From Fuerstiella sp. (lineage in GTDB: Bacteria > Planctomycetota > Planctomycetia > Planctomycetales > Planctomycetaceae), in the NCBI GenBank assembly GCA_022843805.1, contig JALHMY010000039.1:1-64000 (forward strand): a stretch of 64,000 bases of DNA, in the 5' to 3' direction. Made by a program: the position numbers and the translations under genes. The notes below the pieces were generated by a model. It made no database searches and was not told the origin of the DNA. It worked only from the letters and a program-made list of their open reading frames with translations. Below, piece after piece: positions 8,271-36,991 of this stretch; position 1 is the first letter of the stretch, and each line of letters begins with the position of its first letter.

Positions 8271-8974
8271 ATTTCAACGCTATTCCCAGAAGAAATCCTG
8301 CCAAACCGTTGAGAACAACCGCATTTCGAAATGCGGTCATTTACCTTGTTTTGTCCGGAAACTGCTCTGGAACTCGCACAGTACCGGCAATCCCGTCGTT
8401 CGGTGTTCTGAAGGCCATTCTGAGAGAAAGACCTTTTGAACTCCGGGTTGGTTCACCAGGGGACGGGAAGTTTAGCAAAATCTGCCTCATCAACAACCGA
8501 CCCGGCGCAAAATGCGCGACTCGCTGTCCGTTGAGAACGATGCAGAGATTCCATGCCCGTTATCGGCATCAGAACGGGCTGAGGAGTATTGGAATTTTCG
8601 CCGATTTCAGTTACTCAGCAATCTGTTCAGAGATCGGGACTTTCAGCAGCAAAAACTGCCGAAATGCAGGATCTCTGATGGAATTCAGACATCCCCTCAT
8701 TTCGACTTCCACATCGTCCTCGTGAGCAGACACCACATGAGCTGCATGGGCGCATTCGGGTGTTCGTTAACCCTCGGTGATGGAGTGATAAATCGTGACG
8801 GTTTTGCCTGTGATGACGAATCTTCAGTGTCACAACAACAATCCGAATCAGCACGGCGTTGTCCGTGGTCCGATCGATCAAGTCAGGGAAGCCGGTTCGA
8901 CGAAGACAGACTCAGACTCTCTCTGGTCATTCGTCACCAGGTTTCACCTTTCAATTTCGTCGAGGTATAACGCA
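8271..8974 (+). other. 704-bp intergenic region
   Basis: Between tRNA-Met and the YTV gene. Frames of up to about 150 codons are open (8309-8725, 8512-8970) but their peptides have no protein-like or family features, and they overlap one another. The region must hold the tRNA promoter (minus strand, right of 8270) and the promoter/leader of the YTV gene. GAGG 9 nt before the ATG at 8975 is the likely ribosome-binding site. I see no RNA gene in it. Confidence 0.5.
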
Positions 8975-10318
8975 ATGAAAAGGCTCATGCTGGGAGCCGC
9001 GGTTGCAGTTGCCGTACTGCTTAACAGCGGTCTTTCGATGGCCGGGCTGTGCGGAACGGGCAGTTTTTCAAACTGTCCAACGGCAGCTTGTGCAGGCTCA
9101 GGCGACTTCGCAACAGCGTCATGCGGGACCGCACCGCAGTATCGGACAGTTCAGGAGGTCGTTTGGGAACAGCAGCAGTATTCCTGCATGAAAACGGTGT
9201 ACGATCAGTGCACCGAAACTGTTCCCGTCTCCTGTACAAGAAATGTTTACGAGACCTGCTACCGTGATGAATGCTACACGGTTTGCAAGCCGGTCTACGA
9301 AACGCACTACCGAACATGCACTTACAATGTGTGTCGGCCTGTTTATGAAACCTGCTACAAAGAGGTGACATGCACCATCCGACGGCCGGTCTACAACACC
9401 TGCTACAAAGATGTCTGCTACACAGTCTGCAAGCCGGTTTACACCACCTGTCATCGAACAGTGTGCTACACCGTCTGCAAGCCGGTTTATAACACCTGCT
9501 ACCGGGAAGTGTGCTGCACGACGTACAAGATGGAAGCAGAAACCTGCTACCGTGACTGCAGCTACACCATCTTCAAACCGGTGACTGAAACCAAAGTTGT
9601 TGATGTCTGCAGCGGCGAATGGGTGACTGAGACTCGTCACATCCCAGGGCCGATTGTTGAAAAATGTGTCTGCGACCCCTGCAATCCATGCTGCTGCCAG
9701 AAGGTTCAGGTTCAGTGCCCAGGTCGAACGATCTGCTGCCGCAAGTGGTGTCCTAAAATCGTTCAGAAAACGATCTGCTGCACTCGAATGGTTCCGGAAG
9801 TTTGCCACAAGCAGATTCCATACACAGTTTGCCGTCGGGTTCCTGTAACGACAACCAAACAGGTTCCTTACACGACATGCACATTCGTCAGCGAAACCTG
9901 CCAGAAGCAGGTTCCGTACACCGTTTGCACCATGGTTCAGCAGACCTGCACCAAAAAGGTTCCTTATACGACCTGCACATGGACACAGGAATGCGTAACG
10001 AAGAAGATTCCTTACACAACCTGCCGAATGGTTACGGAATGTGTTACGAAGCAGATTCCTTACACATGCTGCCGCATGGAACAGCAGACCTGCACTCGCA
10101 AGGTTCCGTACACAGTCTGCCGTCAGGTATGCGAAACCAAAATGGTTACAACGACGAAGTGTGTTCCTCGCCAGGTATGTGTGAACATGACCCGGTGCGT
10201 TCCACGAGTTGTCTGCCGACAGGTCGCCTGTGATCCCTGCCCAACGGTATGTGATCCATGTGTCAATGGTGCATGTGCACCAACCTGTGCTGTTCCTGGC
10301 GAAGTTAGCGTGCACTAA
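8975..10318 (+). CDS. YTV-domain cysteine-rich cell-wall protein
   Basis: 447 residues from ATG 8975 (MKRLMLGAAVAVAVLLNSGL), with a Sec signal peptide cleaved near residue 22. I rejected an upstream in-frame start because it would bury the signal peptide. The mature protein is built from about 20 short repeats of the type CYxxVCYTVCKPVYxTCYR and KKVPYTTCxxxxECV, with Cys at about one residue in six and frequent YTV/YTT triplets. This is the YTV family, described in Rhodopirellula baltica as components of the disulfide-rich planctomycete proteinaceous cell wall. The repeat type changes half-way, from CYR-CYTVCKPVY units to QVPYTxC units, with a CDPCNPCCCQ linker between. It is monocistronic, followed by a terminator. 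Confidence 0.88.
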   Translation: MKRLMLGAAVAVAVLLNSGLSMAGLCGTGSFSNCPTAACAGSGDFATASCGTAPQYRTVQEVVWEQQQYSCMKTVYDQCTETVPVSCTRNVYETCYRDECYTVCKPVYETHYRTCTYNVCRPVYETCYKEVTCTIRRPVYNTCYKDVCYTVCKPVYTTCHRTVCYTVCKPVYNTCYREVCCTTYKMEAETCYRDCSYTIFKPVTETKVVDVCSGEWVTETRHIPGPIVEKCVCDPCNPCCCQKVQVQCPGRTICCRKWCPKIVQKTICCTRMVPEVCHKQIPYTVCRRVPVTTTKQVPYTTCTFVSETCQKQVPYTVCTMVQQTCTKKVPYTTCTWTQECVTKKIPYTTCRMVTECVTKQIPYTCCRMEQQTCTRKVPYTVCRQVCETKMVTTTKCVPRQVCVNMTRCVPRVVCRQVACDPCPTVCDPCVNGACAPTCAVPGEVSVH

Positions 10319-10481: not shown

Positions 10482-11672
10482 TCAGATGAGCAGATCCATG
10501 ATGGAGAAGTCGTCATCCAGAACGTCGCCACCCTTGAGTGTCCGTACGTAGCGAATCAGACGATCGAGAATATTGTCATCAGCATCGTCCGGCTGGGAGA
10601 TGAACTGCATGAACTCCCGAAACGACCATGTTCCGCCGTTTTGCTTATGAATCTCAAATGCCCCGTCACTGTACAGGAACAGCCGGGAGTTCTTTGGCAC
10701 TTCAATTTCCTGCTGTTCAAAATCGTCCAGTTCAAACATCCCCACTCCGGGGTTCTGTGATTCAAGTTCGATCGGAGCGCCGCTTCCGCCTCGAAGCAGC
10801 AGGGCGGATGGATGACCGCCGCCACTCCACGTCAGTTTTCGCGTCGTGTGATCGAATACTGCATACCACATCGTGAACGTCCGGCCTTCCTGATCTTCCA
10901 TACGAAAGCTTCGATTCAGGGCCGCAAGGACCTGAGCCGGCTGAGCCAGATCGGCTCCTCCAAGAGCTCGCGAACGCAGGACATTGCAGACAGATACGCC
11001 GAGCAGTGCAGATGCAAGGCCATGTCCGGTAACATCCAGCAGAAAGAACACGAAGCGGTCATTGTCGAGCGGAAAGTATCCGAGAGCATCTCCGCCGAGT
11101 TCCGCACTGGGGATGAATCGCCAGTCGATCCTGATTGGGGATGTGATGGGTACCGGCAGAAGTGAAGAGACATATCGAGCGCCGGTCGCCATTTCATGTG
11201 CCATGCGTTTTTCACTGACCTCCAGTGCTTCAAAAGCGGCATTGCGATCGAGCAGATTCATGTAGGCCTGGGAGTGATAGCGAATTCTGGCAATCAGCTC
11301 GAGGCGATCCGGCAGCTTCACAATGTAGTCATTTGCTCCCAGAGCAAATGCGCTGGCCTTCACAACCGGTTCTTCTGTGGAAGACAGAACAATCAGAGGA
11401 GTGTTCCGGGTTGCATTACTGGCGCGATAGAACCGAACCAGTGAGAGCCCGTCGATATCAGGCATGACGAGGTCCTGCAGGATAACGGTCGGCTTCAGGC
11501 TGGCTGCCATATCCAGAGCTTCAAACGGATTCACACAAAAGTGAAACTCGATATCCGGCTCCCCGGCAAGCATCCGACGTACGGCTTCCCCAACAATTGT
11601 CTGGTCGTCAACCAGTAAAACGATTGCTTTGCGCTGAGTTTGACGAGAGGCTAACGATGCGGATGATTGCAT
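10482..11672 (-). CDS. response regulator with PP2C-type (SpoIIE/RsbU) phosphatase output
   Basis: 396 residues. Residues 15-140 are a receiver domain: VLLVDDQTIVGEAVRRML with acidic DD, phosphoacceptor Asp in ILQDLVMPDIDG, and a VKLPDR segment carrying the conserved Lys. A short helix (EALEVSEKRMAHEM) links to a PP2C-like Ser/Thr phosphatase (about 165-395) with the metal-binding motifs AELGGDALG, DVTGHGLAS, SGGGHPSAL and YSDGAFE. Proteins of this layout dephosphorylate STAS-domain anti-sigma-antagonist proteins when the receiver is phosphorylated. It is transcribed divergently from the Hpt-STAS/CheA operon, whose first gene carries a STAS domain, so that STAS is the obvious substrate and CheA the obvious phosphate donor. 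That wiring is inference from domains and position. Confidence 0.88.
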   Translation of the reverse strand: MQSSASLASRQTQRKAIVLLVDDQTIVGEAVRRMLAGEPDIEFHFCVNPFEALDMAASLKPTVILQDLVMPDIDGLSLVRFYRASNATRNTPLIVLSSTEEPVVKASAFALGANDYIVKLPDRLELIARIRYHSQAYMNLLDRNAAFEALEVSEKRMAHEMATGARYVSSLLPVPITSPIRIDWRFIPSAELGGDALGYFPLDNDRFVFFLLDVTGHGLASALLGVSVCNVLRSRALGGADLAQPAQVLAALNRSFRMEDQEGRTFTMWYAVFDHTTRKLTWSGGGHPSALLLRGGSGAPIELESQNPGVGMFELDDFEQQEIEVPKNSRLFLYSDGAFEIHKQNGGTWSFREFMQFISQPDDADDNILDRLIRYVRTLKGGDVLDDDFSIMDLLI

Positions 11673-11905
11673 GGATTATTCAACTGTGTTGAAAAAGTGA
11701 GACGTTACCCGGAGTACATTCAGAAAATAGCCCCAAATTTTTAACGGCGCATGGTGGTCTGAACAGGAAATCAATTGCAACAGGTTTAATGAGGTTTAGA
11801 CTCAGACAGGCCAGACAAATTACAGAAACGTTGCCTGCCCGTCATAACATAACATCACTTGTGGTCTGTCACAGGGCCGGTCTGCCGCAGCAAGCGAAAA
11901 ACACG

Positions 11906-12745
11906 ATGAGTTTTGGTGCGAACGAGATGATGATGGACCTGTTTCGTTCGGAGGTGGAATCGCACTCCGAGACACTCTCGAATGCGCTCATGCAGCTGGA
12001 ACGCGATCCCAGCGATACATCCGTGTATGATTCGATGATGCGATCGGCCCATTCGATCAAGGGAGCTGCTCGAATTGTCAGAGTGGACGCGGCTGTCGAA
12101 CTTTCCCATGTGATGGAAGACTGTTTTGTTGCCGCCAGACGCGGTGAATTGCAGATTAAACCTCAGGATTTTGACGTGCTGCTGCAAGCCGTTGACCTGC
12201 TGGCACGAATCTCCGACGCGACCCGCGACAGCGAGACATCACCAGAATCTCTTGGTGACGAGGTAAGGGTTTGCGTTGATCAGCTGAAGAGTGTGCGTGG
12301 AATTACTGTAGCTGAGTCAGATGTACCGCCGATTCGGGGAAATCCAGATCCTGCCGGCAGCGATACGGTTTCAGTTGTGAAAGCTGTTCGTCAAACCCCA
12401 GCCGAATTCGCTCAACAAACGGCCCCGACGACAGCTTCAGAATCTCAAGCCGCAGAAAAACAGCCCGCCAGGCAGCAGCCGCGGGAGATTGTTCTGACCG
12501 CTGGCAGTTCGCTGTTCCAGTCAGATGCGGAAGTTCTTCGCCAGCAACTTCTTCACGAACTGAAGTCGGGAGTCAGCAGTATTCGTGTCGACATGGCTGC
12601 AACGCGAAACATCGATCCGACTGGTCTGGCATTTCTGGCGTCGGCATTGCAGCACGTGCGTGCGACCGGTGCGAGTCTGACGTTCTCTCCGATTTCCGAC
12701 GAAATGAAGGTTGTACTTCGGCTGACAGGACTCATACGGACATGA
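11906..12745 (+). CDS. Hpt-STAS two-domain signalling protein
   Basis: 279 residues from ATG 11906. Residues 1-110 are a histidine phosphotransfer domain, with phosphorylatable His49 in HSIKGAARIV. A Pro/Gln/Ala-rich linker (about 150-190) leads to a C-terminal STAS domain (about 192-279, IVLTAGSSLFQSDAEVL...). At the phosphoacceptor site of SpoIIAA-type STAS domains (D-S-S-G) this protein has D237-P-T239-G, so a phosphorylatable Thr sits directly before the Gly. Fusing Hpt to STAS on one chain would let a phosphorelay and partner switching meet in one molecule. It is the first gene of the chemosensory operon, and its stop overlaps the cheA start (ATGA). Confidence 0.85.
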   Translation: MSFGANEMMMDLFRSEVESHSETLSNALMQLERDPSDTSVYDSMMRSAHSIKGAARIVRVDAAVELSHVMEDCFVAARRGELQIKPQDFDVLLQAVDLLARISDATRDSETSPESLGDEVRVCVDQLKSVRGITVAESDVPPIRGNPDPAGSDTVSVVKAVRQTPAEFAQQTAPTTASESQAAEKQPARQQPREIVLTAGSSLFQSDAEVLRQQLLHELKSGVSSIRVDMAATRNIDPTGLAFLASALQHVRATGASLTFSPISDEMKVVLRLTGLIRT

Positions 12746-15700
12746 ACCAGCACCGAGCGGAATTCATCGTGGAGTCGCGTGAACATCTGGTGCAGTTTGA
12801 GCGATCTCTGCTCGCGCTGGAGAAAACCCGTGATGGTGAGCAGTCAAAGTCGCTCATTGAACAGGCACTGCGGGCGATTCACTCGCTAAAGGGCGATTCG
12901 GGATTTCTCGGATTTACGAAGCTGCGCGGCCTTGCACATGCAATGGAGAGTCTGCTGGAGGATTATCGCGACGGGACCATTCTGCCATCAGCCGAGGTGA
13001 TTGAGGCTCTGCTGGCCGCCGGTGATCGCCTTGCTGCCATGGTTGAAGATCCTGATCACAGTGAACTGAGCGACATCACTGATGTCGTGGACCGATTGCT
13101 GACGCTGGAAGGATCCCGTCGGCATTCGATTCCATTTGATATCAAAGTAAGCGAATGGCAGCGAAGCCATGGCAATCGTTCCCTCGTGGAACTTTTCCGC
13201 GAGCTCAGCACATTGGGAGCTGTTGGTAACCCCAGGCTTTCTGGTGTTCCTGAGCAGCTTGAAGAATGGACTGCCGGGACGAGGGCCGATGAACTCAGGT
13301 TCTCCGGAATACTGGTGGCTCACGGTTCCTCTGAGCATGCGTCTCAATTCCTGATGCCATTCCAATCTGAAAAGCACAATCCCACTGTCGTTAACTCGGA
13401 ACGCCATGATAAGAAGCAGGTGTCAGTTCAGCTTACGTTATGGCATCGGGAAACAGGAAAGTCCCTGACAGAACTATTTCGAGACATTGATCGAAGCTGT
13501 TCCGTGCAGGATCCACAGCTAATTCTGCCTGATCACCATCTGGCAGGCGGTCTGCCTTCCGGACTCATTGAATGGCGGGGAACGATTAACGCTGGTGAAG
13601 AGTTACCACTCGGCGAGTCACAGCCCGGTCTGACAACTCGGATTTCTGAACCAGCGCCGGTGCAAACGGCGACCGGGGACGAAACTCAGAAAACTGTTTC
13701 CGAGCCGGATCAGAATTCTGCAAAACCGCAAACAGCACCGACTTCTCAATCCGGACGCTCAAGTGATCCGATCAGCGAACTTGCTCCGGAAAAAACGATC
13801 CTCTCAGAGCAGAGGATCGTTGCTGAGAAGAGGATAAATGCCGACAAAGTTCCCACTGACACCGTCAGTCCTCGGGAAACCGTTGTACTTCCCGAAATGA
13901 CGTCCGGGCGTGTTTCGGTGAAGAATGATACTGAGCGTACCAGATCGCTTAGGATCAATGTTGAGCTGCTCGACCGGCTCATGAATCTGACGGGCGAGCT
14001 GACCCTGATTCGCAATCAGACACAGGTGGCATTTGCTGAGGAGCAGGGAGAATCCAGAACGCTGATTCAGCGACTCAACAACGTCACCTCGGAACTGCAG
14101 GAGACGGTTCTGCAGACACGCATGCAGCCTGTGGGAAACCTGTTTGGCCGATTTCCACGCATGGTACGCGATCTGGCACGGCAGCTGGGGCGTGAAGTGG
14201 AAATGGTGACAGTTGGCCAGGAGGTTGAGCTCGATAAGACAGTGCTTGAACGCCTTTCCGATCCATTAACGCATCTGATCCGAAACAGTATCGATCACGG
14301 ACTGGAGTCACCCGAGGTACGAGTCGCTGCCGGAAAACCACGAGCAGGGAAGATTCTGCTTTCGGCAACACCCGCGGACGGTCAGGTTTGTATTGAGATC
14401 CGGGATGATGGGAGGGGCATTGATCCGGTAGCCATTAAATCCCGCGCCGCAGCGACCGGATTGCGGACGGAAGCCGAATTGGAGCGAATGAGCACTCGTG
14501 AGCTGTTCTCGCTGATCCTTTTACCGGGATTCTCCACGGCCCGTACTGTTACGGACGTTTCGGGACGAGGTGTCGGCATGGATGTCGTCAAGACCAACGT
14601 GGAAGAACTGGAAGGCCACCTGACGATCGATTCCTGGCCTGGCCGCGGGACATCAATGGTGCTTCGAGTTCCGCTGACTCTGGCGATCGTCCCATGTCTT
14701 ATTGTCACTGTGGACCAGGACCGGTTCGCAGTGCCTCAGAGGGAACTCGAGGAGATCGTCTGTCTGCACCCAAACGGTAAACGTACGCTGGAGAACGCTT
14801 TTGATACTGAGGTGTTTCGGCTCCGGGATGTGTTGCTGCCGGTCATTCGGCTGAAGGATGTGCTGACCCATCGCCGTCCGTTTACGGCCTCGGAAAAAGC
14901 AGAAATCCTTGGCCGTCATACGATGAAGAGCGAGGATACCAACAGGATTTCCTACATCCTTGTGCTCCGAAGTAGTGGCAAGAGACTGGGCCTGCTGGTA
15001 GATCAGGTCGAGGGTCGGGAAGAAATCGTGGTGAAACCCATGCACCCCGCGCTGCGGCAACTGGCGATCTTTTCAGGTGCAACCCTGATGGGAGATGGTC
15101 GGGTTTCTCTGATTGCCAGTGTGGAAGGCATTGCCGAACATGCTCGCTGCATGGCGCTTGACGGTGATGAATTGCAGAAGACCACTACTCGTGACCCGCA
15201 CGAGGTTCATCGTGTGCTTCTGTTTGAGTATGGCGCTGATGAGCAATTTGCACTGCCTCTGATTCAGGTACGTCGAGTTGAAATGCTCGATATGAGTCGA
15301 GTCGAACACGTTGGGCAGCAGGAATTTGTCACTATTGATGGGCGATCCACCCGCATTCTGAGGCTTAGTGATGTCCTGGACGTCTCGACGCCGGAAGATT
15401 CATCGACGATGTTCCTCATACTTCCGAAGTTTGTGCCGGAACCAATGGGGATCCTGGCAAATCGTATCATAGACACGGAATCACTGGCGATTGAACTTCA
15501 GCCGCCGGGCGGCGATCGCGGAATTCTTGGAACGGCGATTATCCGCGGAAGGCTCTCCTTATTTCTGGATGTTCAGCGACTTCGTGAATTTACCTTCGGA
15601 ATCAGTCACACAACTGCAGAGAAACCAGAACCGCCTGAGTTAGCCAAAGGAATTCGTTCATTAGTTCCCAGAAGCATTTTGCTGGTTGACGATACTCCGT

Positions 15701-16047
15701 TCTTCCGTGAAATCGTTCGGAGATATCTGACGGACGACCAGACTGCAATCGTTACCGCGGTCGACGGTCAGCACGGCATGGAAATGCTGAGCACGCAGCA
15801 CTTTGATCTTGTTGTTTCTGACATCGAAATGCCCAACATGGATGGATGGCAGTTTTGCCGGTTGGCCAGGGAAAAAGGTTATCGAATGCCGTTTCTGGCA
15901 CTCACGTCACTGGCAAAAGCAGACTACGAACAGCAGGCGAAAGCGTGCGGATTCGATGACTTTGAGGAAAAACTGGATCACGATCGATTGAAACGCAAAG
16001 TTCTGCAATGGCTGGAATATTCGAAAGAAAGGGAGATCGCACAATGA
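12742..16047 (+). CDS. cheA: hybrid chemosensory histidine kinase CheA with two CheW-like domains and receiver
   Basis: 1101 residues. P1/Hpt at 1-105 with His47 (IHSLKGDSGFLG). A 130-290 region holds two copies of an unnamed module (SEWQRSHGNRSLVELFREL and LTLWHRETGKSLTELFRDI, each ending in an EW-x-G/A-T segment), then a disordered Ser/Thr/Gln linker. The dimerisation helices start LRINVELLDRLMNLTGEL. The HATPase N-box HLIRNSIDHGLE is near 510, with DDGRGID and GRGVGMDV. The first CheW-like domain spans about 650-800, a second diverged one about 820-950, and a receiver about 970-1095 has phosphoacceptor Asp1027 (VSDIEMPNMDG). It autophosphorylates His47 and should pass phosphate to receivers. 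ATGA overlaps join it to the Hpt-STAS gene before and cheW after. Confidence 0.93.
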   Translation: MNQHRAEFIVESREHLVQFERSLLALEKTRDGEQSKSLIEQALRAIHSLKGDSGFLGFTKLRGLAHAMESLLEDYRDGTILPSAEVIEALLAAGDRLAAMVEDPDHSELSDITDVVDRLLTLEGSRRHSIPFDIKVSEWQRSHGNRSLVELFRELSTLGAVGNPRLSGVPEQLEEWTAGTRADELRFSGILVAHGSSEHASQFLMPFQSEKHNPTVVNSERHDKKQVSVQLTLWHRETGKSLTELFRDIDRSCSVQDPQLILPDHHLAGGLPSGLIEWRGTINAGEELPLGESQPGLTTRISEPAPVQTATGDETQKTVSEPDQNSAKPQTAPTSQSGRSSDPISELAPEKTILSEQRIVAEKRINADKVPTDTVSPRETVVLPEMTSGRVSVKNDTERTRSLRINVELLDRLMNLTGELTLIRNQTQVAFAEEQGESRTLIQRLNNVTSELQETVLQTRMQPVGNLFGRFPRMVRDLARQLGREVEMVTVGQEVELDKTVLERLSDPLTHLIRNSIDHGLESPEVRVAAGKPRAGKILLSATPADGQVCIEIRDDGRGIDPVAIKSRAAATGLRTEAELERMSTRELFSLILLPGFSTARTVTDVSGRGVGMDVVKTNVEELEGHLTIDSWPGRGTSMVLRVPLTLAIVPCLIVTVDQDRFAVPQRELEEIVCLHPNGKRTLENAFDTEVFRLRDVLLPVIRLKDVLTHRRPFTASEKAEILGRHTMKSEDTNRISYILVLRSSGKRLGLLVDQVEGREEIVVKPMHPALRQLAIFSGATLMGDGRVSLIASVEGIAEHARCMALDGDELQKTTTRDPHEVHRVLLFEYGADEQFALPLIQVRRVEMLDMSRVEHVGQQEFVTIDGRSTRILRLSDVLDVSTPEDSSTMFLILPKFVPEPMGILANRIIDTESLAIELQPPGGDRGILGTAIIRGRLSLFLDVQRLREFTFGISHTTAEKPEPPELAKGIRSLVPRSILLVDDTPFFREIVRRYLTDDQTAIVTAVDGQHGMEMLSTQHFDLVVSDIEMPNMDGWQFCRLAREKGYRMPFLALTSLAKADYEQQAKACGFDDFEEKLDHDRLKRKVLQWLEYSKEREIAQ

Positions 16048-16532
16048 GTGAACGCGAAACACTCTATTGCACCTTCCGAACTGCAGACCGTCTTTTCGGA
16101 GTTCGTGTACTGGACGTCAGAGAAGTCACTACGGAATCCCGTTTTACAAAGATTCCTCATGCTCCGGACGAAGTTCTGGGCCTGGCCAATATCCGCGGAC
16201 ATATTTTTCTGGCGTTGAATCTGGCAACTCTGCTGGGAATTCGTGATCACTCGCCACCAGCAGATTCTCAGTTCGTCATCTTTAAACCAGCCGTCGGACC
16301 AGCATTCGGGATTGTTGTCGATCAGGTTGGTGACATCGTTTCTGTGTCCGGCAAACAGACCGAGGTCCTGTCGCCCGATGACCATGGTGTTCCGGACTTT
16401 AGTGACCGGAGTGTGTTCGTTTCCAGCGTCTGCAAACTGGATCAGCAGCTGTTGATTATTCTGGATCCTTACCGATTTTTGCCCTGTGTCGAAAATTCCA
16501 TTACGACAATTCTGAATACAGGGCCAGATTGA
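16044..16532 (+). CDS. cheW: CheW coupling protein
   Basis: 162 residues, one CheW (SH3-like double barrel) domain: TLYCTFRTADRLFGVRVLDV, then IPHAPDEVLGLANIRGHIFLA with the conserved N-I-R-G turn, then FGIVVDQVGDIV. CheW links the receptor tip to CheA in chemosensory arrays on the inner face of the membrane. The start ATG overlaps the cheA stop (ATGA); an upstream in-frame start at 16008 was rejected. GAAAGGGAG lies just upstream as ribosome-binding site. With the two CheW-like domains in CheA, three such domains are encoded in this locus. Confidence 0.93.
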   Translation: MSERETLYCTFRTADRLFGVRVLDVREVTTESRFTKIPHAPDEVLGLANIRGHIFLALNLATLLGIRDHSPPADSQFVIFKPAVGPAFGIVVDQVGDIVSVSGKQTEVLSPDDHGVPDFSDRSVFVSSVCKLDQQLLIILDPYRFLPCVENSITTILNTGPD

Positions 16533-16688: not shown

Positions 16689-18950
16689 ATGAATTCGACT
16701 TTTCTAAGTGCCAGCATGAAGAACGCTAAACTCAGCAGTAAATTCCTGTTTCTGACAATCATATTGCTGGCAGTCTCAGTATTCATAGCCTGGGTGGGAA
16801 TCAGCCGCCTTCGCACCCTGAATGCCAAAGTTGAACAACTAGGCAGTCGGACCATGCAAAACGCAGTGACTGCCGGCACCATTCGGACCAGGCTGCTCCT
16901 GGCAATTCGATCGCAGAAGAACTCCATCCTCGCCACAACGACTGCGGATTCGATCAGGGAAGCGGAATTATCCCGGAAGCACTTTTCGGACATCAACAGG
17001 GAAACTCGGCTATTGTCAACATTGGCCAGCGGAGCCGAAAAGGCTTTGTTTGACGAGTTTGAAGTGGCACTGGAGGAGTTCCGTAAAATGAATGAGAGCT
17101 GCCTGGAGATGTCGGTGCTGAATACCAACATCGCGGCAAAGGCAGAACTCTATGGCAGAGCTGCAGATGCGTTGTCACGAATACTTAGTACGTTGAAGAC
17201 CTCTGCACTGACGATAAAGAGCAAGGCTCCGGCTGACAGTGGTCGTGACGAGACGCTGGAATCTATTCGCGAATTCACCGACCTGACGCACGAAATCTTC
17301 CGTATTGCTGCTCAGCACATCGATACTTCAGCAGGCGAAAGTCGCTTCACGGAAATCGACCAGCGCCTTCGTGAAATGCTTGAGATGTTGCCCAGAAACT
17401 CCGAGCGGGTGCAGGAAAGTATCCAGACGGCTGGCATTCCTGCCAATGATCTGTCAGCCGCCGCAACGGCGTTACGTTCCAGCATCGCTGAGATCCTGCG
17501 ACTGTCAACGATCGACTCGAACAACAAATCTGTTGAGATGAGTCTGGCAGGCAGACAGAAGACCGATGCTGCGATAGCCTCAATTGATGAACTTGTCGGT
17601 CTGCTGACTGCTGCCGCCGAACGTGATGTTGCCGAGAGCGGCAACATCTACAGTCAGGGACTGATGTTTATCGTGGCTACCTGTGTGGCCGGCCTGTTAC
17701 TGGGATTCTGGGCGTCATTTTCAATTTCCAAATCGATTACCCAGCCAATCACTATGGTGCGTGACGTAACTCGGGATATGGCAACCGGCGACCTTGAATC
17801 ACGCATTCAGCTGTCCCAGCAGGATGAAGTGGGAGAACTGGCATGCGCAACGGACGCACTCGCAGATGCTCTGACAGCGATTATTGTTGAAATACAAAAG
17901 ACGTCCGTCGTACTTGCGGAGTCATCATCAAATCTGGGGGAGATTTCCGGCGGGCTTGCCGGGCAGAGCGAGGAAACATCACTTCGGTCCAGCAGTGTGG
18001 CCGCCGCAGCCGAAGAACTATCGACAAATATCAACACGATGAGTGCTGCGGCCGAACAGATGAGCATGAATTTCTCGTCGATTTCATCCGCCACTGAAGA
18101 ACTGAGTGTGAGCGTGGGAGCAATTTCTTCCGCCGCTGAACAAACGTCTTCAAACGTGACCAATGTGTCGGGTGCCGTGCAGAGCATTTCCAGCTCGTTC
18201 GGAGATGTACTGAGAGATGTGAAAGAGGGAGCCCGAATCGCGGGTGACGCTTCTCAGATGGCCGATACCGCCGGACGAACAATGCGGGATCTGGACCAGT
18301 CGAGCTCAGAAATCAGTAAGTTCACCGAAACCATCAAAATGATTGCTCTGCAGACCAATCTGCTGGCCCTGAATGCCACCATTGAGGCGACATCCGCGGG
18401 TGAGGCGGGAAAAGGGTTTGCGGTGGTGGCACATGAAATCAAAGAACTGGCAAACCAGAGTGCGAAGGCTGCCGAAGACATCGCAAGAAAGATTGAAGGC
18501 GTTCAAAGCGGAACTCGACAGGCTGTTGGTGTGATTCGGGAAATCGCAGATGTCATCAGGAACATCAATCAGTCGGCCGACAGAATATCGATGTCTGTCG
18601 AAAACCAGAATGTTTCAGCGCAAACGATTTCCCGAAACATTGCCGAGGCAAACCAGGGAGTTGGTCATATTGCCCGGTCAATTTCAGAAGTGGCATCGAC
18701 CGCCAATCTGATGGCCCGGAACATTGCGGAGGCATCACGAGGAGCGGTCGATGTGTCGCGAAATGTGGGCGAAGCTGCTCGCGCTTCAAGCGGAATTTCT
18801 CAGAGCATCTCCCGAGTCAGCGCTGCGGCGAAGGAGACAAACTCTTCTGCGGCTGGCGTCACTGAAGCAGCAAAGCAACTGGATCAGATCGCTGCGGAGT
18901 TGCGAAATCTGATTTCAAAGTTCAAGATCTCGCGTAATGGAAACGCCTGA
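16689..18950 (+). CDS. methyl-accepting chemotaxis protein
   Basis: 753 residues. TM1 at about 18-38, a periplasmic helical bundle of about 280 residues with no recognised ligand-binding family, TM2 at about 322-345 ([19 protein letters not shown]), HAMP at about 347-398, then a long cytoplasmic coiled coil. The kinase-control hairpin tip is near 553 ([16 protein letters not shown], then [17 protein letters not shown]), matching the family consensus. The C-terminus ends [12 protein letters not shown], without an NWETF-type CheR tether. Alternating Ala/Ser/Glu repeats ([20 protein letters not shown]) provide methylation-type Glu pairs. It lies 156 bp after cheW and overlaps cheB by 14 bp, so this receptor is the dedicated input of the locus. 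Confidence 0.93.
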
Positions 18951-20055
18951 ACCAATTCGAATTCTGATTGTGGATGATTCCCGGATCTTTCGCAGCGTGC
19001 TGCAGTCAGTTCTGGAAGAAATCCCTGATGTTCGCGTCGTTGGATCCGTTTTCAGCGGCGAAAAGGCAATCGAATTTATTGATAAAACTCCCCCCGATCT
19101 GGTGACGCTTGACGTCGAAATGCCAGGGCTGGGGGGGCTTGGTACACTGCGGGAAATTGTGCAGCGCAACCAGACTCGCCGCCTGACGCCCCCTGTTGAC
19201 ACGATTCTGGTCAGTGCGCTAACGAAAACGGGATCCCGGGTCACGGTCGAAGGCCTGCAGCTGGGAGCCCTGGACTTTGTCTGCAAACCGTCTGAGTCGA
19301 CAGAACACGCGAATCGGGAAGCGTTGCGGCTGGCGATCGAACAAAAGCTGGGGGCCGTGAGACAACGGCGATTTGCGTTGCGAAGAAAAGCGGCAAGCGG
19401 GAATTCGGACTCCGCGCGCGTCGCCTCTGTTACACGGTTTCCGGCAGAAGCCAGCGGACAACGAACCAGCAAATATCGGGCGATCGCCATCGGCGCTTCC
19501 ACAGGCGGTCCAGAAGCGCTCAGTCAGTTATTGCCGTCGCTGACCCGGCAATCAATGGTGCCTGTGTTTATTGTGCAGCACATTCTGCAGGGACTAAGCG
19601 GTTACCTGGCCGACAGCCTTTCGGCCAAATGTGGTCGGGCCGTCATGGAAGCCAGAGATGATCTTGAGATAACGCCCGGGGGAATCTATCTGGCCGTGAG
19701 TGGTAAGCATATGCTGGTCCGCAGTCATGGCGGAAATTTGAAGATTGGAGTTTCGTCTGCTCCTCCGGAGAATGGCTTTCGACCGTCAATTGATGTATTC
19801 CTGAAATCTGCGTCAGCCGCCTATGGCCAGCGGCTGGTCGCCGTCATTCTCACCGGGATGGGCAATGATGGGTCAGACGGTATTCGATCCGTGCAGCGTG
19901 CAGGTGGCTACGTGATTGCTCAGGATGAATCCAGCAGTGTCGTGTGGGGTATGCCGCGAGCAGCGGCCGAAACGGGGGCAGTTCACGAAGTGCTGCCACT
20001 CAACCGAATGGCTGACTGCCTGGCAGGACTTGTGTCCACCGGAGCAAGTCGATGA
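18937..20055 (+). CDS. cheB: chemoreceptor methylesterase/glutamine deamidase
   Basis: 372 residues. Receiver domain 8-125 ([16 protein letters not shown], phosphoacceptor in [22 protein letters not shown] Lys), a basic linker, and a C-terminal CheB methylesterase domain from about 180. Its catalytic Ser lies in [10 protein letters not shown] (about 188), His in IVQHIL (about 214) and Asp in GMGNDGSDG (about 310). It removes methyl groups from receptor Glu residues and is activated by phosphorylation from CheA. The start overlaps the MCP stop by 14 bp and the stop overlaps cheR (ATGA), so adaptation enzymes are co-translated with their receptor. Confidence 0.95.
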
Positions 20056-20915
20056 ACCTGACTCAGCACGAGTTCGATGTCATCCGACAGTTCGTTCATT
20101 TGCAGAGCGGACTGGCTCTGGCTGCAGACAAGCAATATTTGATTCTCACACGCCTGAAACCGGTGGCCGAACGACACGGACTGCGATCGTTTGCGGAAAT
20201 CATCAACCGCCTGCAGGACCGCCAGAATGTCGCTTTTCGCGATGAAGTTGTTGAAGCACTGCTCACGAATGAAACATCATTCAATCGCGATGTTCACCCG
20301 TTTGATGAACTGCGGCGTGTGATCCTTCCTCAAATGGTCGAACTTCTGAAAGAACGCAAACTGCGATCAGGACTTCCATTCCCGCGAATTCGGATCTGGT
20401 CAGTGGCGGCTTCGACCGGTCAGGAACCATACAGCATCGCGATGGCGATTCTCGACTTCCTGCAACTCAATTCCCATACCGGGCTGACGGCCGAGCACTT
20501 CTGGATCCTTGCGAGCGACATCTCCGAGAAGTCTCTGCAGATTGCCCGCACTGGCGTGTACTGGGATCGTGAAATCGAGCGAGGTGTTACTCCGGATCAA
20601 AAACTCAGATACTTTGCGCAGCATGGACAACAGTGGATTGTTACTCCCGCAGTGCGGAAGCTGGTTGAATTCCGGCGGGTGAATGTGTTGCAGAATATCG
20701 CCGACCTGAGCGGCTTTGATCTGGTCTTTTGTCGCAATCTGCTCATCTATTTTGATGAACCTGCTCGCATCCTGGTTTGCAGGAAACTGGCTGACAGCAT
20801 GAACCCCGACGGAATACTGCTTCTCGGTTCGTCTGAAGGATTGCCAGCAAATCTGGAGTCGACGTTTCGTCAGAAACTCTATGGGCGAACGGTAGGGTTT
20901 GTGAAGGTGCGATGA
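20052..20915 (+). CDS. cheR: chemoreceptor methyltransferase
   Basis: 287 residues. An N-terminal helical CheR_N domain (1-75, LTQHEFDVIRQFVHLQSGLA) precedes a SAM-dependent methyltransferase domain. Motif I is IWSVAASTGQEPYSIAM (usual WSAGCSSGEEPYS, here with G-Q for G-E), then ILASDISEKSLQIAR and VFCRNLLIYFD, the CheR signature. It methylates receptor glutamates using SAM. No C-terminal TPR extension is present, in line with the lack of a tether pentapeptide on the receptor. It is the last gene of the operon (ATGA overlap with cheB). No cheD, cheY or flagellar gene follows. Confidence 0.95.
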   Translation: MNLTQHEFDVIRQFVHLQSGLALAADKQYLILTRLKPVAERHGLRSFAEIINRLQDRQNVAFRDEVVEALLTNETSFNRDVHPFDELRRVILPQMVELLKERKLRSGLPFPRIRIWSVAASTGQEPYSIAMAILDFLQLNSHTGLTAEHFWILASDISEKSLQIARTGVYWDREIERGVTPDQKLRYFAQHGQQWIVTPAVRKLVEFRRVNVLQNIADLSGFDLVFCRNLLIYFDEPARILVCRKLADSMNPDGILLLGSSEGLPANLESTFRQKLYGRTVGFVKVR

Positions 20916-33570: not shown

Positions 33571-34515
33571 TCAGCGATGGGAGGTTCCGGCGGCGACGTT
33601 CAGCGGGCCGCGGAGCCATGCGTGAGGACCAATCGTACAGTTTTCGCCAATCACGACCGGCCCTTCAATGACGCTGAACGGTCGAACGACCGTGTCCCGA
33701 CCAATCTGAACTCCAAAGTCGATGCTGGTCTGTGACGGATCTTCAATCGTCACTCCTGACAACATCAGTTCATTCAGTAAAGTCTGCTGAATGCTGGCTC
33801 GGACCTCAGACAGCTGCACTCGAGTATTCACACCGAGCGCCTCTTCGAGCGTCAGGCTGCAGATCGCGGAAACTCGATGCCCCTGATCCATCAGGATACG
33901 AGGACAATCTGTCAGGTAATACTCAGACTGTACGTTATTCGGCCGTACCTGTCTCAGTGAGGAGAGCAGTAACGGAATGTCGAACGCATAACACCCCGTG
34001 TTGATCTCCGTGATTTTACGCTGCTCCGGAGTTGCATCCTTTTGTTCAACGATCGCCTGAAACGTACCCTGACTGTCTCTGACAATTCGCCCGAGTCCTT
34101 CGTTTCTGATCGTGTCTGCCGTGCCGACAACACAGGCGGCACCCTGTGTCTGCTGAGCATCAAGCAGTGCTTTCAGAGAGCTGCCTTTCAGCAGAGGTGT
34201 GTCTCCCGCAAGAATTAATACCGATCCGGTTTGACCCTGCAGTTCAGACTCGCACATCATCACCGCATGACCGGTCCCCTTTTGCTCCGTCTGTTCGGCA
34301 AAGACCACATCTTTGTGCGCTGACAGTGCACTGCGGACCAGGTCCGCGCGATGCCCAACGACCACGATCAGACGCTCAGTCCCGGCTGCCCGGGCTGCAT
34401 CCAATACGTACTCAATCATTAGCCGACCGCAGACTTTGTGCAGGACCTTCGGAATCTCCGACTTCATTCGGGTACTCCGTCCGGCAGCCAGAATCACAGC
34501 GACGGAAGCAGTCAT
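33571..34515 (-). CDS. GlmU-like NTP transferase lacking the acetyltransferase half
   Basis: 314 residues from ATG 34515. The nucleotidyltransferase domain (VAVILAAGRSTRMKSEIPKV, VVVGHRADLVRSAL, QTEQKGTGHAVMMCE, LILAGDTPLL, EINTGCYAFD) matches the uridylyltransferase half of GlmU, which makes UDP-GlcNAc from GlcNAc-1-P. After it come only a few hexapeptide-like turns (IDFGVQIGRDTVVRPFSVI, VVIGENCTIGPHAWLRG), then the protein stops at about 314 residues against about 450 for full GlmU. The acetyltransferase active-site region is therefore absent. It may act on a pre-acetylated sugar phosphate, with a separate enzyme supplying acetylation. The start is next to a long hairpin-repeat array that replaces a normal upstream region. 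Confidence 0.85.
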   Translation of the reverse strand: MTASVAVILAAGRSTRMKSEIPKVLHKVCGRLMIEYVLDAARAAGTERLIVVVGHRADLVRSALSAHKDVVFAEQTEQKGTGHAVMMCESELQGQTGSVLILAGDTPLLKGSSLKALLDAQQTQGAACVVGTADTIRNEGLGRIVRDSQGTFQAIVEQKDATPEQRKITEINTGCYAFDIPLLLSSLRQVRPNNVQSEYYLTDCPRILMDQGHRVSAICSLTLEEALGVNTRVQLSEVRASIQQTLLNELMLSGVTIEDPSQTSIDFGVQIGRDTVVRPFSVIEGPVVIGENCTIGPHAWLRGPLNVAAGTSHR

Positions 34516-34523
34516 ATTGAAAC

Positions 34524-35624
34524 CTCCCATGTGGTTTTTCTGTACCGGGAGGGCGAGGCTCCTGCCGAGCCGTGCAGTTTCCGGCTCAGCGGGAGCTTCG
34601 CCCTCCCATGTGGTGTTCTGTGCCGGGAGGGCGAGGCTCCCGCCGAGCCGTTCCGTTTCCGGCTCAGCGGGAGCTTCGCCCTCCCATATGGTGTTCTGTA
34701 CCGGGAGGGCGAGGCTCCTGCCGAGCCGTTCCGTTTCCGGCTCAGCGGGAGCTTCGCCCTCCCATGTGGTGTTCTGTACCGGAAGGGCGAGGCTCCTGCC
34801 GAGCCGTGCTGTTCACGGCTCAGCGGGAGCTTCGCCCTCCCATATGGTGTTCTGTACCGGGAGGGCGAGGCTCCTGCCGAGCCGTGCTGTTTCCGGCTCA
34901 GCGGGAGCTTCGCCCTCCCATGTGGTGTTCTGTGCCGGGAGGGCGAGGCTCCTGCCGAGCCGTGCTGTTTCCGGCTCAGCGGGAGCTTCGCCCTCCCATG
35001 TGGTGTTCTGTACCGGGAGGGCGAGGCTCCTGCCGAGCCGTGCTGTTCACGGCTCAGCGGGAGCTTCGCCCTCCCATATGGTGTTCTGTACCGGGAGGGC
35101 GAGGCTCCTGCCGAACCGTGCTGTTTTCGGCTCAGCGGGAGCTTCGCCCTCCCATATGGTGTTCTGTACCGGGAGGGCGAGGCTCCTGCCGAACCGTGTT
35201 GTTTTCGGCTCAGCGGGAGCTTCGCCCTCCCATATGGTGTTCTGTACCGGGAGGGCGAGGCTCCTGCCGAACCGTGTTGTTTGCGGCTCAGCGGGAGCTT
35301 CGCCCTCCCATATGGTGTTCTGTACCGGGAGGGCGAGGCTCCTGCCGAACCGTGCTGTTCGCGGCTCAGCGGGAGCTTCGCCCTCCCATGTGGTGTTCTG
35401 TGCCGGGAGGGCGAGGCTCCTGCCGAGCCGTGCAGTTTCCGGCTCAGCGGGAGCTTCGCCCTCCCAAATGGTGTTCTGGTACCGGGAGGGCGAGGCTCCT
35501 GCCGAGCCGTGCTGATTCCGGCTCAGGGGGAGCTTCGCCCTCCCATGTGGTGTTCTGTACCGGGAGGGCGAGGCTCCTGCCGAACCGTGCTGTTCACGGC
35601 TCAGCGGGAGCTTCGCCCTCCCAT
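34524..35624. repeat. 14 tandem copies of a 78-bp hairpin unit
   Basis: Each unit reads CTCCCATRTGGTGTTCTG, then GGGAGGGCGAGGCTCC with TGCCGAGCCG, a variable 8-9 bp loop (TGCTGTTTC and variants), then CGGCTCAGCG with GGAGCTTCGCCCTCCC. The two arms are near-perfect inverse complements over about 26 bp. Period 78 bp, 14 units; one unit is 79 bp. Because 78 is divisible by 3, several frames stay open across the array and give repetitive peptides (GEAPAEP, RLSGSFALP, WEGEAPAEP), which I do not regard as genes. Variation is concentrated in the loop and at the PAEP/PAEP-like AGC/AAC position. The array separates two minus-strand genes. It resembles REP/BIME arrays, with unknown function. Confidence 0.93.
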
Positions 35625-35662
35625 TTGTCGCGGTGACGGGTATGTTTTCACCGGCCGGTTGC

Positions 35663-36991
35663 CTAATAACGCAAACCGATCTGCCCGATGAAACCATCCT
35701 GCAGTCCGTAACTCGGGACTGCTGCATTCGCGAATTCGACGTTTCGGTCGAAAACGTAGCCGCCTTCGAAGAACCAGCTGTAATAACCAGAGTCCATGTT
35801 CAGTCCCATCAGCACGCGGTAATCTTCGATCTGCACCTGATCGTCGGCAGTGACTCCGCCAAAACCACGGTTCACGCCATAAGATTCCACGTGGTATTCA
35901 CCTCGAACATACAGCCATTTCGACCAGAACGCCTCGTTGCCGAGAAACAGACTAACCTTTGCCTCGGGGTACATCAGACGCCATTCCCAGTAGTCATCCC
36001 GATAAATGAATCCCGCCCAGGGAATCACGATGTCGTCGACTCGGTCCCAGTACATGGCTCCAAGTCCCAGCGTCCAGTACTGATCGAGCTGCATCAGCAG
36101 TATGCCGCGACCATCCAGCTGGAATCCCTCACTGCTCGAAGCTTCAAAATCCGTATTGAGCGAAGGTGTAATGCCGAGGCTGATGCTCCAGGGACCTGCC
36201 TGAGGAGTTTCCATTTCAAAGTCCATTCCAAGCCGAAACAGGTCTGATGGCAGGGTCAGTCCCGCATCAGGACCATTCCAGTTTCGGTAGCTAAACTGGT
36301 TGGTCCAGTTGAGAATCCAGCCAGGAATAAACGGGGTTGTATAACCCAGTCGATAATCAACTCCAAGAATATCCATATCGCCGGTAATGCCAGCAGGAGC
36401 ACCTGTCGCACTTCCACCGGGCAGCCATGAGACATCCACAGCGTTGCTCCAGCCATATCGATAGGGTTTCGCACCATTCGCGCCGAATGTTGACAGTCCC
36501 TGCGGAGGGATGCTTTGCTGAGTACCTCCATAGGGAGAGTACGGAGCATAGGGCGAAGGCTGCATGCCGCCGAATCCTGGCTGAGGCCCGTAGCCTGGCA
36601 TTGCACCAGGCCCCGGCTGAGCGACAAACGGATCGGGTGGATACTGCGGGGAAAACGCATTCCATGTCATATTGTCCGGGTAGGCCGGCATTGACATATC
36701 CGGCGTGACAAACATGGAATCCGCCATCGGTGCGTTGTATTCGTCGCCAGTGATAAACTCCGGCGATACCGATGTTGAAGACGGAGCCGATACTGCAGGG
36801 GCCGTTTCCCCAGGCTGGACTGGCATTGGCACTCCGCCAGCATCGGGTGACTGGCCTCGAAACACTGTCCCAACAGTCAGCGATTTGCGGAACAAAGACC
36901 GAGAATTCTGTGCGGCCACATGATCGCTTACGATCAGTGTTACCGCCATTACCGAAATCGCAGATATCAGCGACAGGTGGAAGGATTTCAC
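35663..36991 (-). CDS. outer-membrane beta-barrel protein (DUF6268-like)
   Basis: 442 residues with a signal peptide (MKSFHLSLISAISVMAVTLI, cleavage after VAA). Residues 50-170 are low-complexity and rich in Pro, Gly, Gln and Met (AQPGPGAMPGYGPQPGFGG). The C-terminal 260 residues alternate hydrophobic and polar residues in amphipathic strands (GWILNWTNQFSYRNWNG, LFRLGMDFEMETP, YWTLGLGAMYWDRVDD, WLYVRGEYHVESYG, YYSWFFEGGYVFDRN). The protein ends GQIGLRY, with a terminal aromatic as in BAM-inserted barrels. This fits the DUF6268 group of planctomycete outer-membrane proteins. The function is unknown; transport or surface-structural. It is a single gene with a 385-bp upstream region. Confidence 0.78.
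   Translation of the reverse strand: MKSFHLSLISAISVMAVTLIVSDHVAAQNSRSLFRKSLTVGTVFRGQSPDAGGVPMPVQPGETAPAVSAPSSTSVSPEFITGDEYNAPMADSMFVTPDMSMPAYPDNMTWNAFSPQYPPDPFVAQPGPGAMPGYGPQPGFGGMQPSPYAPYSPYGGTQQSIPPQGLSTFGANGAKPYRYGWSNAVDVSWLPGGSATGAPAGITGDMDILGVDYRLGYTTPFIPGWILNWTNQFSYRNWNGPDAGLTLPSDLFRLGMDFEMETPQAGPWSISLGITPSLNTDFEASSSEGFQLDGRGILLMQLDQYWTLGLGAMYWDRVDDIVIPWAGFIYRDDYWEWRLMYPEAKVSLFLGNEAFWSKWLYVRGEYHVESYGVNRGFGGVTADDQVQIEDYRVLMGLNMDSGYYSWFFEGGYVFDRNVEFANAAVPSYGLQDGFIGQIGLRY

Follow-up and report, generated by a model that had tools for sequence, protein, structure and literature searches.

We describe a chemosensory operon of the planctomycete Fuerstiella sp. that is headed by a gene for a single chain joining a CheA P1-type Hpt domain to a STAS domain without a phospho-acceptor. 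Upstream and divergent lies a gene for a receiver-PP2C phosphatase, and the order of the operon is conserved in the orthologous loci. The window, that is, the whole stretch of DNA analyzed, comprises positions 1 to 64,000 of contig JALHMY010000039.1 (assembly GCA_022843805.1). The best explanation we can offer, to which we give a probability of roughly 0.6, is that the Hpt domain is a detached P1 that would be phosphorylated by the CheA of its own operon and would feed the receiver-PP2C, with the degenerate STAS domain acting as a tether.

Table 1. Features of the Hpt-STAS protein and of the genes around it (window coordinates)
Feature	Coordinates	Strand	Basis
Receiver-PP2C phosphatase, divergent neighbor, WspR-type receiver	10482..11672	-	Pfam Response_reg + SpoIIE
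Hpt-STAS protein, 279 aa	11906..12745	+	ORF, Pfam, 26 distinct homologues including the window protein
Hpt domain, residues 9-100, CheA P1 type	11930..12205	+	Pfam Hpt; CheA P1 domains lead the fold matches
His49, phospho-acceptor of Hpt	12050-12052	+	within HSIKG
Pro/Gln/Ala-rich flexible linker, residues 134-190	12305..12475	+	pLDDT <50
STAS domain without phospho-acceptor, residues 188-277	12467..12736	+	Pfam STAS/STAS_2; profile matches SpoIIAA, RsbV
D237-P238-T239-G240 of STAS	12614..12625	+	acceptor position Pro238, then Thr239
CheA: own P1, dimerization, kinase, two CheW-like domains, C-terminal receiver	12742..16047	+	Pfam
CheW	16008..16532	+	Pfam
Chemoreceptor (4HB_MCP_1, HAMP, MCPsignal)	16689..18950	+	Pfam
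CheB	18937..20055	+	Pfam
CheR-like methyltransferase	20052..20915	+	ORF, named by eye

The Hpt-STAS gene and the affinity of its Hpt domain

Both halves of the protein score above their Pfam cut-offs (Hpt, 54.3 bits against 24.6; STAS_2, 44.9 against 29.2; STAS, 38.7 against 22.6), which bears out the fusion proposed in an earlier note on this DNA. The Pro/Gln-rich linker described there is likewise present, its Pro-, Gln- and Ala-rich residues being predicted to be disordered. We place the start of the gene at 11906 and not at 11789, where a longer frame opens, because the orthologues align from 11906; in one of these (L015) the start codon is not ATG. The stop codon of the Hpt-STAS gene and the start codon of the CheA gene share an ATGA, a 4-base overlap, and the P1 is thus carried on an open reading frame separate from that of the kinase. 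This overlap, the conserved operon order and the existence of 25 other distinct homologues of the same architecture argue that the fusion is not due to chance. No NCBIfam model above its cut-off names an Hpt-STAS fusion, and the VIA-align fold list for the protein holds no family beyond those already seen in its sequence.

The 26 distinct Hpt-STAS proteins comprise 12 orthologues, 11 proteins from a class-wide search, and three from a check of short frames. Seven class-wide matches were dropped as repeats: six repeat an earlier row letter for letter along their length, and L172 was read as a twin of L015 without a string match. Because near-copies are retained (L010 and L011 are 100% identical, L013 and L014 92%, and L196 and L197 differ little), the 26 proteins are not 26 independent cases. 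For the last pair, the STAS_2 score is 29.8 in L196, just above the Pfam cut-off of 29.2, and 26.3 in L197, below it. The genes recovered from short frames belong to G419, G569 (contig 7), and G651; short frames of G657 and G569 (contig 8) gave no STAS match, nor did the frames of G192 (L113) and G204 (L110), which run to the ends of their loci and may be cut short before a STAS domain. Hpt-STAS occurs in at least 22 of the 397 genomes sampled from the class; among 392 genomes sampled from the phylum, the whole fusion is found in the window's genome alone, and two further matches run off the ends of their sequences. The one search for relatives that reached beyond the planctomycetes gave 154, of which we took 80. 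All fusions examined from that search are planctomycete, its remaining relatives being judged by match range and frame length, and the fusion is so far found in planctomycete genomes only. The homologue of L178 (G463) lies in an open frame of 539 residues, longer than the others, its extra length being possibly an extra domain or an upstream-extended frame.

When the Hpt domains are aligned with CheA P1 structures, H49, K52, H68, and E71 are found to be kept in all 26 proteins. The CheA-type Lys, His, and Glu are the partners of the P1 acceptor His, and the phospho-His is apparently usable. In VIA-align comparisons, the fold matches 1i5n with a Z of 19.2 (rmsd 2.1 over 127) and 3kyi with a Z of 17.6 (rmsd 2.5 over 128). 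By sequence comparison, the domain is a CheA P1 of the sort carried by Wsp-type kinases and differs from the P1 of the CheA encoded next to it: the window Hpt is 46% identical to a Collimonas CheA P1 and 23% identical to the P1 of its own neighbor. We compared the 12 first-set Hpt domains with 101 other P1 domains and found mean identities of 24% to the P1 domains of the adjacent CheAs (12 rows), 27% to seven additional CheAs from the genome and genus of the window, and 45% to the P1 domains of planctomycete CheAs that go with a receiver-PP2C (12 rows). For the remaining 70 CheAs, drawn from cyanobacteria, proteobacteria, and further groups, the mean is 48%, a value biased upward because those 70 were fetched for their likeness to the Hpt-STAS protein. 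The P1 tree places the Hpt-STAS domains in one group (98) and the P1 domains of the adjacent CheAs in another (90), but it is built on few columns and an AU test does not reject the two as one clade (p-AU 0.56), so the assignment rests on the identities and not on the tree. Strong PP2C partners (>170 bits) are encoded at 3 of 70 loci, many of them cut short (L021, L035, and L043 among L020 to L089), and other members of this P1 lineage therefore seem to serve other outputs.

In one genome (G614), an Hpt domain of the Hpt-STAS type and an operon-type CheA are carried on a single chain of 1,079 residues (L201, 1796-5032). After the Hpt domain (126 bits, residues 50-149) come a linker rich in Pro and a second P1, which aligns with that of the window CheA at 64 bits; the kinase core beyond them can be aligned with residues 395-1083 of the window CheA at 694 bits. 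The receiver-PP2C gene is divergent and adjoins the fusion gene, and no STAS was found in the 1,079-residue chain. This one genome ties the Hpt domain to an operon-type CheA, and the STAS domain is absent where the link is covalent.

The acceptor position of the STAS domain

The D-P-T-G motif, present as the earlier note had read it, falls on the D-S-T-G of RsbV (6m36) in a single-sequence alignment and on the D-S-S-G of SpoIIAA in a ten-sequence profile, which matches SpoIIAA with an E of 1.4e-6; the fold matches RsbV 6m36 with a Z of 11.2 (rmsd 2.3 over 88; VIA-align). In SypA, the phosphosite is S56, the primers for S56A and S57A reading D-A-S-G and D-S-A-G, and the account of these residues gives S57 a part in stabilizing the phosphorylation step but not the role of acceptor (PMC10120452). 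Since the phosphorylated residue directly follows the Asp, as does S56 of SypA, the acceptor position here is Pro238, and Thr239 corresponds to SypA S57. Alignment with SpoIIAA and RsbV thus keeps Thr239 inside the phosphosite loop but sets it one residue past the acceptor, and the phosphosite Thr of the earlier note turns out to be the residue after the acceptor position.

The acceptor column of the 26 homologues holds A in 14, V in 6, and P in 6, with Ser or Thr in none. The Thr239 column is looser (T 9, V 6, Q 5, A 3, and I, P, and M 1 each); Thr stood there in 2 of the first 12 orthologues, in 9 of a later 23, and in 9 of the final 26. Judged from these columns, the Hpt-STAS family as a whole has lost its Ser/Thr switch. 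Of the eight STAS domains encoded in the window's genome, five carry Ser at the acceptor column; Ser is missing from Hpt-STAS itself, from one further domain, and from a STAS that stands alone in a second che cluster. That cluster (L135, 3225-7402 of contig C7) comprises genes for this single STAS protein, whose motif reads D-V-S-A, for a chemoreceptor-like protein, for a CheY-like protein, and for a CheA.

A reading in which Thr239 is phosphorylated as in stressosome proteins, so that a His phosphate and a Thr phosphate would sit on one chain, can call on the right loop, on a PP2C phosphatase encoded next door, and on a Thr kept in 9 homologues. It is opposed by the Pro at the acceptor, by the lack of Ser or Thr there throughout the 26, and by the absence of Thr239 from 17 of them, on which grounds we rejected Thr239 as the phosphosite and regard the reading as very improbable. 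The His half of the double phosphorylation thus appears sound, given the four conserved Hpt residues, and the Thr half falls with the acceptor column. We assume that T171 and T205 of RsbRA and S59 of RsbS lie in the same loop. These are the stressosome phosphosites named in the text of PMC3944199, and an acceptor Thr or Ser of that type is absent from the loop here, as judged by the RsbV and SpoIIAA alignments. The proposed likeness to RsbR-like stressosome proteins also fails on the rest of the chain and on its surroundings, for the N-terminal domain is a CheA P1 and not a globin-type sensor, and no RsbT-like kinase is among the six operon proteins scanned with Pfam.

A STAS domain that is permanently free of Ser/Thr phosphate could act as an antagonist that binds an anti-sigma factor, with the Hpt phosphate gating the binding in cis. 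The STAS fold does match RsbV and SpoIIAA, and the genome encodes HATPase_c_2 (RsbW-type) domains elsewhere (eight matches listed, four of them over the cut-off), but none of the eight listed lies on the window's contig. The position two before the Asp, at which kinase-switched STAS proteins have an aromatic interface residue, is aromatic in none of the 26 Hpt-STAS proteins (D 20, E 4, N 1, H 1), and the anti-sigma-antagonist model TIGR00377 gives 26.9 bits against a cut-off of 53.45. We hold this reading to be quite unlikely. Just as doubtful, in our estimate, is a STAS switch in which the His phosphate of the same chain has taken over from the Ser/Thr phosphate and through which the array would directly gate the binding of a STAS partner; if true, a STAS domain gated by His phosphate would merge two-component and partner-switch signaling in one molecule.

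The receiver-PP2C partner and the operon

Two structures that we take to be WspR match the receiver of the receiver-PP2C: 3i5a, whose entry is named response regulator/GGDEF, at 191 bits, and 3bre at 177 bits. The entry 3eq2, RssB-like by NCBIfam, follows at 123 bits, and receivers outside the WspR and RssB-like groups reach about 50 bits at best.

The receiver-PP2C is present in 21 of the 22 other genomes with Hpt-STAS and, by coordinates, is adjacent and divergent in 15 of the 22 (18 and 12, respectively, of 19 genomes, together with three in which it is always adjacent and divergent). It was not found in G402, which holds the lowest-scoring Hpt-STAS of the class-wide set. At 3 of the 11 first-set loci, it is not adjacent but lies elsewhere in the genome, in one of the three (L127) after a CheR-like frame on another contig, as read by eye. 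The suggestion from these three loci that the receiver-PP2C is dispensable was rejected, since it was found in all six genomes searched, those three included.

Across the 397 genomes of the class, the P1 lineage occurs in 109, the receiver-PP2C in 116, and both in 104, counts that take the best 6 and 4 candidates per genome and ignore shared ancestry. About 95 class genomes have the receiver-PP2C with no detected Hpt-STAS, so the phosphatase does not need the fusion. Across the 392 genomes of the phylum sample, the Hpt-STAS profile matches in 20 (E 1e-30) and the receiver-PP2C in 26 (E 1e-60); 18 genomes have both, 16 of them on one contig, and the 19 profile matches outside the window all end by model position 208 of 277. 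We fetched the loci of 12 of the 17 non-window genomes that have both. All 12 sister loci encode a CheA with a P1 of the Hpt-STAS type, then CheB, then the receiver-PP2C; CheR was recognized in 10, CheR and CheW lie mostly ahead of CheA, and a search with one profile at E up to 1 found STAS in none of the 12. Two genomes, G720 (L172 and contig C57) and G496, hold an Hpt-STAS gene and, in addition, a CheA of the same P1 lineage that by coordinates is a few kilobases from a receiver-PP2C.

This co-occurrence bears on another reading of the protein. CheS of Sinorhizobium meliloti, a single-domain STAS protein of rhizobial che clusters, binds CheA, as portrayed in PMC12654446, and has no Hpt domain; the Hpt-STAS protein might similarly have as its main task, in place of feeding the receiver-PP2C, to bind the operon CheA and redirect its phosphate, for example towards dephosphorylation, with the Hpt domain acting between the CheA receiver and CheB as a phosphate shuttle or sink. 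The C-terminal receiver of the window CheA suits such a role, as does the lone STAS of the second che cluster, which also lacks the acceptor Ser. The association of the P1 lineage with the receiver-PP2C would go unexplained, however, and CheS is likened to Hpt-STAS by description and not by sequence; we consider this reading unlikely.

The CheR-like homologue holds the same place in 9 of the 11 orthologous loci, and the other two (L004 and L019) end before it. Residues 101-400 of the window CheA have no Pfam match; two similar segments of about 60 residues lie at residues ~130-285 (about 13130-13600), between P1 and the dimerization domain, and are perhaps divergent P2-like domains. Elsewhere in the window, positions 8795-10318 (+) encode a repeat protein rich in Cys, in which Pfam YTV matches seven stretches (167 bits). 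The repeats at positions 34313-35691 can be read in several frames of either strand (EGEAPAEP and GRARLLPSRA peptides) and probably form an array between genes rather than a gene.

A detached phosphodonor and its known counterparts

Under the reading that we prefer, that of a detached P1, His49 would be phosphorylated in trans by the array of chemoreceptor, CheW, and CheA whose genes lie downstream, and the Hpt domain would hand the phosphoryl group on to the receiver-PP2C, the divergent neighbor, at its WspR-type receiver. The phosphorylated receiver would then switch the Ser/Thr phosphatase, whose output is perhaps another STAS-type protein. The STAS domain of the fusion, its own switch lost, would most likely serve as a tether in place of a covalent link. 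It could dock P1 on CheA, as CheS binds CheA, or could itself dock on the PP2C as a pseudo-substrate that lacks the site. The L201 chain leads us to lean towards docking on CheA. We infer the phosphorylation in trans, the transfer to the receiver-PP2C, and the tethering role; against the scheme it counts that L201 is a single case and that the window CheA, which has its own P1, may not need a second donor.

Parts of this scheme have precedents. In the Wsp system, WspE passes phosphate to WspR, as PMC9758175 relates, and the P1 lineage and the WspR-type receiver are the same here. The output, however, is a PP2C and not a GGDEF domain, this P1 shares its chain with STAS and not with the kinase, and the adjacent CheA is of another type; the Wsp-type Collimonas locus (L064) ends in receiver-GGDEF, and the sister planctomycete loci largely share its gene order. 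In the CheA3/CheA4 pair of Rhodobacter sphaeroides, and where the Hpt domain of CheA is split off within an operon, a P1 phosphodonor works away from the kinase domain, with no STAS mentioned in the sections of PMC10782961 that treat them. The P1 of CheA3 is a close fold match of the Hpt domain of Hpt-STAS, whose resident CheA, in contrast to those systems, keeps its own P1.

The HptB-HsbR-HsbA pathway of Pseudomonas aeruginosa likewise combines an Hpt protein, a receiver-PP2C regulator, and a STAS protein, as outlined in PMC6482189. In the window, by contrast, a single chain holds both Hpt and STAS, the regulator is without a kinase/anti-sigma domain, the STAS domain lacks the Ser that HsbA has (S56), and the input is a chemoreceptor array. 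Similar parts are joined as separate proteins in the F7 stage-1 clusters (PMC7184735) and in Shewanella Che1 with CrsR/CrsA (PMC9855816); the antagonist is a separate protein in both, and the descriptions of these systems in the two papers include no Hpt-STAS fusion. We found no paper in the open-licence literature that names such a fusion, which therefore appears to be new as an arrangement of parts known elsewhere as separate proteins.

If the detached-P1 reading is true, a chemosensory phosphodonor has left its kinase and gained a docking domain of its own, and a single array could then serve a Ser/Thr phosphatase while its kinase stayed as it was. It would also carry a warning, for a STAS protein encoded beside a PP2C need not be the substrate of that phosphatase: the site may go and the fold stay.
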